A stretch of DNA of 64,000 bases from Leisingera daeponensis DSM 23529 (GTDB taxonomy: Bacteria > Pseudomonadota > Alphaproteobacteria > Rhodobacterales > Rhodobacteraceae): contig NZ_KI421500.1 in assembly GCF_000473145.1 (NCBI RefSeq), forward strand, positions 3,187,725 through 3,251,724. Direction: 5' to 3'. The notes beneath the pieces are model-generated. The model searched no databases, was not told where the DNA came from, and worked only from the letters and a program-made list of their open reading frames with translations. Below are positions 1,294 through 2,607 of the stretch, piece after piece. Each line of letters begins with the position of its first letter. Within the stretch, counting starts at the first letter, position 1. The translations under genes were made by a program, and so were the position numbers.

Positions 1294-1713
1294 TCAATCC
1301 GGGTCGATTTTACCGCGCGTCGCTTTCAATTCGCCGCGCTGCTTCTTGGCGTCCAGCCGCCGCCTGACGGAGCCGCGGGTGGGTTTGGTGGCAATCCGCC
1401 GCTTCGGCGCTACCAGCGCCTGGCGCACCAGCTCCGCCAGACGCTCACGCACGATCTCGCGGTTCCTTTGCTGCGAGCGGGTCTCGTCGCATTGCAGGAT
1501 GATGGCGCCGTCCTTGGTCCAGCGGCGGCCGGCCAGCCGCTTCAGCCGCGATTTGACCGCAGGCGTCAGCGAAGGCGAGCGTTCAGCCTCGAACCGGAGT
1601 TCCACGGCGGTCGCCACCTTGTTCACATTCTGCCCGCCCGGGCCCGAGGCGCGGATGAAGCTCTCGGTCATTTCCCAGTCCTGCAGGCTGATTTGGTCGT
1701 TGATGCGGATCAT
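1294..1713 (-). CDS. arfB: Alternative ribosome-rescue factor ArfB (peptidyl-tRNA hydrolase)
   Basis: A 139-aa ArfB/YaeJ protein. The GGQ motif (GPGGQNVNKV, Gln28) hydrolyses peptidyl-tRNA on stalled ribosomes, and the basic tail (RRRLDAKKQRGELKATRGK) is the part that in this family enters the empty mRNA channel. Length and order match the family, which releases non-stop ribosomes when trans-translation fails. ATG at 1713 follows a short AAAGAG ribosome-binding site. The start lies only 31 nt after a strong hairpin in an unusual leader (1745-1920), so expression may depend on leader structure. That regulatory idea is inference. Confidence 0.93.
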   Translation of the reverse strand: MIRINDQISLQDWEMTESFIRASGPGGQNVNKVATAVELRFEAERSPSLTPAVKSRLKRLAGRRWTKDGAIILQCDETRSQQRNREIVRERLAELVRQALVAPKRRIATKPTRGSVRRRLDAKKQRGELKATRGKIDPD

Positions 1714-1744
1714 GGCTCTTTATGAAATAGCCACCGGAAAATCG

Positions 1745-1777
1745 AAAGGGCTGTTCCCACACTTGGGAACAGCCCTT
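1745..1777 (-). terminator. Strong hairpin (terminator/attenuator) directly upstream of arfB
   Basis: A 13-bp perfect stem (AAGGGCTGTTCCC at 1746-1758 against GGGAACAGCCCTT at 1765-1777) has a 6-nt loop. Pairing extends outward through TCGA ends with one bulged A. On the minus strand it is followed by a T-rich stretch (TTTCGATTTTCC). It ends 31 nt before the arfB ATG, so it can act as a terminator for the leader transcript or as an attenuator of arfB. Confidence 0.7.
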
Positions 1778-1785
1778 CGAGATGA

Positions 1786-1920
1786 TAGGAGGTGCACCGG
1801 TTAGGTCAGCACCAATTCAGTGATCTATACGCGCCAAGGGCTGCCTCGGCCGCACTCCTTCTGAACTGTTCCGGTACTGCTCTCCATAGCTTCTCTAGAC
1901 AATGGGCACCTCCTTTCTAA
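1786..1920 (-). ncRNA. Candidate structured leader RNA of arfB with extended Shine-Dalgarno and anti-SD strand
   Basis: On the minus strand, AGAAAGGAGGTG (1918-1907) is a 12-nt complement of the alphaproteobacterial 16S rRNA 3' end (CACCTCCTTTCT). About 110 nt downstream lies GCACCTCCT (near 1788-1796), a perfect 9-nt partner of AGGAGGTGC, so the leader can fold back and hide its own ribosome-binding site. A TTGACA box lies at 1964-1959, but no convincing -10 follows. Either a free-standing small RNA or a cis leader of arfB would fit. I do not recognise an Rfam family. Confidence 0.5.
1825..1902 (-). CDS. Candidate leader peptide / small ORF, 25 codons
   Basis: A TTG codon at 1902 sits 6 nt after the very strong AGAAAGGAGGTG site and opens a 25-codon frame ending KECGRGSPWRV then TAG; an internal ATG is at codon 6. 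Spacing and Shine-Dalgarno strength favour translation, but the start codon is non-standard and I do not recognise the peptide. A second frame is also open over most of the stretch but lacks a start. Possible roles are a leader peptide whose translation sets the fold of the arfB leader, or no role at all. Confidence 0.35.
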   Translation of the reverse strand: MSREAMESSTGTVQKECGRGSPWRV

Positions 1921-1971
1921 TGTTTCGTGTAGGTCCAGCCTGCCACAGATTCGGTTAATGTCAAAACAAAA

Positions 1972-2607
1972 TCATGTGGTCTTTGCGGTAAGCTTACGCA
2001 CGATGATGCGGAAGGGCACAAGGGCGATCACGGCCAGCGACAGTTTCACCAGCCAATCGGCCACGGCCAGCGAGACCCACAAGGGGGTTTCGGGGCCAAT
2101 GCCCAGCAGCGGCAGAACCTCTGCGGCCCAGGATACGTCGTTGGCCGGCTCCAGCCAGCTGAGCGCCGCCGAAAACGCCAGGGTGAAGAAAATCGCAGTG
2201 TCGACGGAGGAGCCGATCAGGGTGGAGGCCAGCGGCGCGCGCCACCATTTGCCCTCGCGCAGGGCGGAGAACACGGCCACATCCAGCATCTGCGCCGTAA
2301 GGAAGGCAAGACCGGAGCCAAGCGCGATGCGCAGGGTCACCGCCGGATAGGTGAAGCCATCGCCCTGCAGCATGATCCGGGTGCCGATGAGCGAGCAGAT
2401 CACCCCGGCGACAAAGCCGGCAGCCACGACCTTGCGCGCGGCGGCGGCGCCGTAGACCCGGTTCATCACATCGGTGACAAGAAAGGCGGCCGGGTAGGTG
2501 AAGGCGCCCCAGGTCAGCCACTGGCCGAACAGGAATTGCACCAGTATGTTGGAGGCCACCACCACGGCGGCCATGGCAAGAATGCCGGGGATATGCGAGC
2601 GGGTCAT
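1972..2607 (-). CDS. yhhQ: Queuosine precursor transporter (VUT/YhhQ family)
   Basis: A 211-aa inner-membrane protein with about six hydrophobic segments, including the family segments FGQWLTWGAFTYPAAFLVTD and VYGAAAARKVV. YhhQ proteins import queuosine precursors (preQ0/preQ1) for tRNA modification. Length is normal for the family. The ATG at 2607 starts the standard MTRSHIPGILAMAAVV-type first helix. The gene lies upstream of the arfB leader on the same strand. I looked for a preQ1 riboswitch in the 140 bp upstream and did not find a convincing one. Confidence 0.85.
   Translation of the reverse strand: MTRSHIPGILAMAAVVVASNILVQFLFGQWLTWGAFTYPAAFLVTDVMNRVYGAAAARKVVAAGFVAGVICSLIGTRIMLQGDGFTYPAVTLRIALGSGLAFLTAQMLDVAVFSALREGKWWRAPLASTLIGSSVDTAIFFTLAFSAALSWLEPANDVSWAAEVLPLLGIGPETPLWVSLAVADWLVKLSLAVIALVPFRIIVRKLTAKTT

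Follow-up and report, generated by a model that had tools for sequence, protein, structure and literature searches.

The minus-strand stretch between vut and the ribosome-rescue gene arfB in Leisingera daeponensis DSM 23529, analysed within a window of 64,000 nt (the whole stretch of DNA under study), is, on comparative sequence evidence, most likely an autonomous RNA gene of about 185 nt and not a leader of arfB. It is a diverged relative of the Rfam family RF01867 (CC2171), to which it is linked by reciprocal searches without being a member by Rfam's rule. The RNA carries a mini-ORF behind a Shine-Dalgarno (SD) sequence that is masked by a distal strand, and selection appears to act both on pairing and on translation. 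A tentative reading, held with slightly less than even confidence, is that this structured RNA works as a ribosome-gated small mRNA or sRNA. With a mini-ORF that shows selection and a near-maximal SD hidden by folding, what had been an orphan sRNA becomes a translation-coupled device open to testing, and the RNA occurs in many members of a major bacterial class. Should ribosome gating prove correct, it would be a simple natural gauge of initiation capacity.

Architecture of the locus

The features of the locus are collected in Table 1. The elements that a sequence-only reading had listed ahead of arfB are all present, namely TTGACA, a 12-nt SD, a TTG-opened frame of 25 codons and a perfect 9-nt partner of the SD.

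Table 1. Features of the minus-strand locus upstream of arfB, in window coordinates
Feature	Position	Strand	Basis or comment
-35 element TTGACA	1959..1964	-	promoter-like, conserved in Rhodobacteraceae
-10-like element CAGGCT (CANNNT), TGTGG just before	1937..1942	-	alignment on TTGACA
Super SD AGAAAGGAGGTG, 12 nt	1907..1918	-	complement of 16S 3' end
Mini-ORF, TTG start 1902-1900, 25 codons, stop TAG 1827-1825	1825..1902	-	
Start-codon hairpin, CCAU 1905-1902 with AUGG 1887-1884	1884..1905	-	helix 2
Pseudoknot 5' arm GAGA (codons 3-4)	1892..1895	-	covariation
Helix 4 5' arm CCGG, within mini-ORF	1871..1874	-	covariation
Helix 4 3' arm CCGG	1797..1800	-	covariation
SD-masking strand GCACCTCCT, perfect partner of AGGAGGTGC 1914-1906	1787..1795	-	helix 1
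Pseudoknot 3' arm UCUC, directly before terminator-type hairpin	1779..1782	-	covariation
Terminator-type hairpin, T-rich tail to about 1738	1745..1778	-	strict hairpin scan; helix 7
arfB, neighbour, probably outside the unit	1294..1713	-	NF006718, 184.8 bits, cut-off 100
vut / queuosine precursor transporter, upstream neighbour	1972..2607	-	TIGR00697, PF02592

The promoter-like elements are shared within the family. TTGACA, matched at five or more of its six positions, occurs in 67 of 89 Rhodobacteraceae loci and begins 47-51 nt 5' of the SD in 63 of those 67. When the loci are aligned on it, a CANNNT box follows after a 16-nt spacer (C 0.88, A 0.91, final T 0.96), and transcription is predicted to start near 1930 on the minus strand. 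Outside Rhodobacteraceae the promoter signal is weaker, with a score of at least 8 of 12 in 52 of 120 sequences against 17 of 120 shuffled ones.

A pattern search of the strain's own genome returned three matches, two of them 16S ends reading ...GGATCACCTCCTTTCT (L297, L298) and one another place (L296). Both of these 16S-like 3' ends have the sequence ...CACCTCCTTTCT, so that AGAAAGGAGGTG matches them as an exact complement over 12 nt. In many relatives the SD has the longer form AAAGGAGGTGATCC, with at least 14 nt of perfect 16S complement, part of which has been lost in the window's genus together with the usual stop of the mini-ORF. The 201-nt stretch 1935-1735 is predicted to fold at -86.3 kcal/mol, compared with -58.9 +/- 4.3 for shuffles (z -6.4; 0 of 200 as low), and the locus is 93-97% identical in all 20 of the same-genus genomes searched.

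The final hairpin had been described as a 13-bp element of an arfB leader. It is indeed present, with 15 pairs when A-T and G-T are counted, and leaves 31 nt to the arfB ATG at 1713; what changes is its role, which is that of a unit-ending, terminator-type structure. Its T tract is interrupted (TTTCGATTTT), and a consensus scan of 1200-2700, the range within which this hairpin lies, returned no terminator-like site.

Hairpins of the GGGCCGC...GCGGCCCTTTT type recur elsewhere in Rhodobacteraceae genomes (L309-L314), some of them just past apparent ends of coding genes, and look like a common terminator shape. AAGGAGG is also present on the opposite strand of some copies of the RNA (L049, L317), where it lies across from a CCTCC stretch close to the mini-ORF end. 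In addition, a small hairpin of the GGGGCARCC type was observed after or overlapping the mini-ORF end in L040, L049, L053, L112 and Rhodobacteraceae loci.

Relationship to RF01867 and distribution

At the curated threshold, Rfam gives 0 matches in the window, and RF01867 is shown only by a permissive scan. The scores obtained (window 34.2 bits, L022 36.3, L003 29.1) lie below the gathering cut-off of 75. Since the three scanned Rhodobacteraceae copies fall below this cut-off, standard annotation is likely to miss the branch. The match to the window nevertheless spans the full model (1-159), with E 1.2e-5 in 501 bases and 2.4e-4 in 9566 bases, and a copy in another family genome (L050 in G061) was found at E 4.7e-5 in a whole-genome search. 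Across the class, the RF01867 model found 25 of 142 genomes at E <= 0.001, five of the 142 above the cut-off, under stricter filters by which the strain's own genome was missed; the count of 25 is slightly too high because two matches, L051 (G158) and L055 (the second in its genome), lack AAGGAGGTG, the SD, and are doubtful.

The reverse search used R1, a covariance model built from 72 Rhodobacteraceae copies. R1 finds the RNA in 62 of 101 relatives: 56 of 61 in Rhodobacteraceae, of which 15 genomes had supplied its sequences, and 6 of 40 outside. These six out-of-family matches (G039, G043, G048, G050, G054, G065) fall at the same places as the RF01867 matches, and they represent six of the nine RF01867-positive genomes among these 40 (G040, G045 and G047 were missed). 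Furthermore, R1 gave 13 weak extra matches, and the six inspected proved to be the common terminator shape at other places, so that an R1 score at or below roughly 30 bits may reflect nothing more than the hairpin. The six matches elsewhere in the class score 25-40 bits and are relied on as coinciding with RF01867 places. The helix that joins post-start codons to the pre-terminator strand in RF01867 is found in the window as the pseudoknot of Table 1.

Pattern searches extended this distribution. An exact 5' pattern, which the window's own variant does not fit, matched 74 of 385 class genomes, and the matches listed include none of the reversed control. A looser pattern matched 206 of 248 Rhodobacteraceae genomes and its reversed control two, and the matches listed for an MSHCH-subtype pattern include Bosea, Methylobacterium, Microvirga, Brevundimonas and a Caulobacter MAG. 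Most family genomes carry the RNA, mostly as a single copy; in some genomes the 5' module is present twice, at separate places (L036/L054 in one genome, L124/L168 in Methylobacterium tarhaniae). Five loci were dropped from the Rhodobacteraceae set, two being pattern matches that are not this RNA (L096, L253) and three belonging to the other subtype (L106, L112, L272). All five are counted in the totals of 113 given below and excluded thereafter, and the latter three were reused in the class set.

Conserved pairings

The sequence-only reading had proposed looking for covariation among relatives in the SD/anti-SD helix and the last hairpin, and pairings do covary across 72 aligned Rhodobacteraceae sequences (alignment A1, 217 columns). 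A strict hairpin scan of 93 loci, including six of the 21 genus members, reported the hairpin in 80, at least two of these picks (L242, L295) lying at another place; A1 comprises 72 of the 80, and the 13 loci missed by the scan all align full-length to R1. A structure of 39 pairs gives standard pairs in 91.8% of the cells of A1 and has 22 pairs with double changes, compared with 12.8 in shuffles, with no slid version coming close; as it was written from folds and covariation of A1 itself, these counts are biased in its favour. The aligned rows are related, and the shuffles and permutations reported here are therefore not strict probabilities. The search pattern itself included the SD and the TGTC that follows the start, and their invariance in A1 is therefore largely by construction.

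Among the individual helices, the SD mask (helix 1) is paired in 97.8% of cells in the 72 sequences and shows no double changes. Its variation is one-sided and lies on the mask, being mostly C to U in 25 cases (GC to GU) and A to G in 15 (UA to UG), so that wobble pairing is kept; the two wobble-changing pairs are broken in three sequences each. The start-codon hairpin (helix 2) is paired in 92.5% of cells, with double changes at two of seven pairs, and helix 4, within the ORF, in 93.7%, with double changes at four of four. All ten pairs of the terminator-type hairpin (helix 7) show double changes. Only 71.7% of cells retain helix 5, perhaps because a good register is lacking.

The pseudoknot, in which the start-hairpin loop pairs with the strand that precedes the terminator-type hairpin, is paired in 88.2% of cells. 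Its pair 36:173 (GC 53, AU 17, GU 2) is broken in none of the 72 sequences and ranks second among the covarying pairs listed; pair 37:172 is broken in 19 of 72. The covariation score of the pseudoknot is 0.322 against 0.159 in shuffles, and 0 of 500 shuffles reach either this score or the share paired, while 75 of 500 reach its number of pairs with double changes.

The early-codon pairing is also seen outside the family. For the early codons with the pre-terminator strand, 0 of 10000 permutations reached the observed energy over 99 distinct pairs (from related sequences), and the signal holds also among the 30 out-of-family sequences without CATTGTC. Where CATTGTC is present, it is answered by GACAATG in 42 of 69 distinct pairs. 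A second out-of-family pairing, the SD-masking signal there, links the spacer and start to an internal strand that in many copies is similar to the 16S end. It was reached by 0 of 10000 permutations in 121 sequences and by 4 of 10000 in the 49 with other spacers; this pairing is modest, with a median rank of only 0.26-0.27.

Signs of selection for translation of the mini-ORF

The start, open frame and stop position of the mini-ORF look selected. Among 87 Rhodobacteraceae loci outside the genus, the ORF is exactly 18 codons long in 76. Codon 19 is TGA in 34 loci, TAG in 27, TAA in 15 and TGG in one, with ten other sense codons once each, and a stop before codon 19 is absent from 85 of 87. The 18-codon ORFs are open by definition; across these 76, stops occur in 31 and 42 cases in the two alternative frames. 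Across the class, ORFs of 18-35 codons are found in 119 of 121 sequences, against 34 and 36 of 121 in shifted frames, 77 of the 121 coming from the MSHCH-subtype pattern, which fixes their first codons. Three loci found by R1 without a search pattern all keep the SD and have ORFs of 18, 18 and 23 codons. The window's genus has 25 codons in 21 of 21 cases, with the stop at codon 26 (TAG 20, TAA 1); at codon 19, where relatives have the stop, the window has CGA (1848-1846). Judged against the control frames, both the open frame and the stop position are thus kept, as expected of a translated small ORF.

These data also bear on what the product of the locus might be. A non-coding sRNA whose role is to capture 30S subunits or the 3' end of 16S rRNA, with incidental translation of the mini-ORF, would account for the strong fold and for the extended 16S complement of many relatives, but is unlikely in view of the long open frames and of a stop position that is fixed with three different stop codons, TGG appearing only once. 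A plain small-protein gene, in which the peptide of 18-26 residues does the work and the fold only tunes translation, is a rather more serious candidate, if still on the unlikely side. It is favoured by the MSRxxLExGVGT shared by Rhodobacteraceae peptides, by the MSHC(H/L)...TW..AS of many others (whose first codons are fixed by the pattern in the MSHCH-pattern loci), and by the synonymous share, which is 0.401 in the mini-ORF frame against 0.265 and 0.277 in the other frames (from codon 7: 0.376 against 0.260 and 0.349). However, the two peptide types share little beyond MS, and the second G of VGT varies at helix 4 positions (58:150 is GC in 67 sequences, AU in 3 and other in 2; 57:151 is AU in 6). 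Codons 13-18 have a mean entropy of 1.37/1.49/1.22 at the three codon positions, leaving this part of the peptide unconstrained. A fixed stop after a free peptide end suggests that the ribosome's end point matters more than the product.

Type I toxin mRNAs combine a short ORF with a strong, masked SD and a long-range interaction between 5' and 3' parts. By analogy, the RNA might be an mRNA of this kind whose fold-back blocks translation of a toxic peptide. This is extremely improbable, as the peptides are, by eye, mixed in character and poorly conserved between branches, and the RNA has the wide, mostly single-copy distribution described above.

Probable independence from arfB

The assignment of the locus as an arfB-specific leader, made in the sequence-only reading, is not upheld: the unit has promoter-like elements and a terminator-type hairpin of its own, and its persistence does not follow that of arfB. 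The closely related view that the RNA attenuates arfB in cis according to ribosome availability draws on the short gap between hairpin and arfB in the window and on gene order: of 113 Rhodobacteraceae loci, five of them non-members, 94 have a same-strand arfB downstream. The neighbouring vut is conserved too, however, being upstream in 100 of the same 113 loci (non-members likewise included), so that adjacency of arfB may be plain synteny. When the 21 genus members and the five non-members are left out, arfB is found at 73 and vut at 79 of 87 loci. The remaining 14 of the 87 have no ArfB match (E 1e-3) in the downstream flank, which is short in L264, while vut is present and the RNA kept. Ten downstream proteins from arfB-less family loci gave seven Pfam matches, and four of the seven are encoded on the opposite strand (L254, L271, L275, L288), that of L271 beginning 692 nt downstream.

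Outside Rhodobacteraceae, ArfB was found in the flanks (up to about 1.5 kb a side) of 0 of 56 loci, four of which are under 2.5 kb, and the constant regulated gene that an attenuator calls for downstream is thus lacking there. Downstream genes there differ in kind and are often convergent; 14 opposite-strand proteins were chosen from among them, and 12 gave Pfam matches of varied kinds. The gene calls are heuristic and their '-' tally mixes missing genes with opposite-strand genes, and the neighbour evidence therefore rests on Pfam. Because the RNA is kept without arfB in both the family and the class, it is independent of an adjacent arfB.

No clearly covarying antiterminator was detected either: among the 60 pairs listed, the best upstream partner of a terminator-arm column is 94:205, with a score of 12.4, between the 99% level (11.3) and the 99.9% level (25.0). 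Taken with the conserved vut and the arfB-less loci, this makes arfB attenuation very unlikely. GGAACAG of the mini-ORF was considered as an antiterminator against CUGUUCC of the hairpin; it fits the window and fails, by eye, in several relatives. A link to queuosine through the neighbouring vut was dropped on reasoning only.

The idea of an attenuator that senses ribosome availability thus survives in part. Its sensing half agrees with the selected mini-ORF, the conserved SD mask and the predicted access to the SD on nascent RNA, whereas attenuation of arfB is unsupported. The pairing is conserved among relatives, as that reading had proposed to check; regulation of arfB does not follow from it.

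Predicted folding and working model

Folding of the growing window RNA, computed at successive lengths with the pseudoknot ignored, predicts a mean unpaired probability of 0.39-0.68 for the SD up to 135 nt and of 0.0 from 140 nt. The start codon remains roughly half open throughout, with 0.52 unpaired in the finished RNA. The SD:16S duplex is predicted at -20.1 kcal/mol in the window and -25.4 on average, and the cost of freeing the SD at 12.8 and 8.1 kcal/mol, respectively, with the duplex outweighing the cost in all 72 sequences. The bare SD:mask duplex is as strong as SD:16S in the window (-20.4) and averages -15.8. On these predictions, a 30S subunit would reach the SD on nascent RNA, and on finished RNA only by invading the helix.

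The favoured reading of a ribosome-gated small mRNA or sRNA can be set out as follows. The SD of the nascent RNA would stay partly open until about 135 nt are made and would then be masked. Binding of a 30S subunit during or after synthesis may keep the RNA open and allow the mini-ORF to be translated, while an RNA without a 30S subunit would close into a compact, pseudoknotted form. The open and closed forms would have different stabilities or different binding partners, and because of this difference the effector is more likely to be the RNA than the peptide. It would presumably act in trans, since there is no constant neighbour. As to its target, the candidates are the freed CACCUCC strand, whose sequence is similar to the 3' end of 16S rRNA, and the captured 30S subunit itself.

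A wider proposal, on balance unlikely, is that of a class-wide RNA sensor of initiation capacity, in which the opened or closed RNA acts in trans and the peptide is largely dispensable. Each new transcript would offer a perfect partner of the 16S 3' end briefly, before the mask is made. Given this brief exposure, the fraction of transcripts opened and translated to the fixed stop would report on free 30S subunits.

Comparison with known systems

Ribosome-mediated attenuators such as the trp leaders consist of a short ORF with an SD, followed by further pairings and a terminator-type hairpin. The window RNA has the same succession of a short ORF with an SD, later pairings and a terminator-type hairpin. 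Unlike trp-type leaders, it has no constant downstream gene outside the family and no clear antiterminator, and by eye its peptide lacks a conserved run of control codons.

Small RNAs from related bacteria provide further points of comparison. Pos19 of Rhodobacter sphaeroides is described as a 219-nt small coding RNA of the RpoE regulon (PMC5036791); compared by description only, it resembles the window RNA as a small RNA with a coding label in a related bacterium. In Caulobacter, ncRNA regions are reported to be mostly untranslated, with two earlier predicted ncRNAs found to be translated (Schrader 2014, PMC4117421). In Mesorhizobium huakuii, the intergenic sRNA MH_s33, given as 215 nt in one column, is assigned to RF01867; its likeness to the window RNA is judged from this assignment, and its table row mentions no mini-ORF (PMC5596092). 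RF01867 is listed among the families with improved structure in Rfam 15 (PMC11701678). In the literature searched under the names CC2171 and RF01867, no functional study of the family was found.

The closest known system is RF01867 itself, an sRNA family first seen in Caulobacter, whose name CC2171 reportedly comes from Landt and colleagues. Both RNAs carry the 5' elements AACAA-GAAAGGAGGUG-spacer-UGUCU in the same order, and both end in a 3' hairpin of the GGGCCG/CGGCCC type. Unlike RF01867, which is typed in Rfam as an sRNA and not as an mRNA, the window RNA has its SD masked by a distal strand, and its early-codon pairing forms a pseudoknot into the start hairpin. To the extent of the literature searched, three things are new for this RNA: the masked SD together with its mini-ORF, the pseudoknot, and the branch in Rhodobacteraceae.
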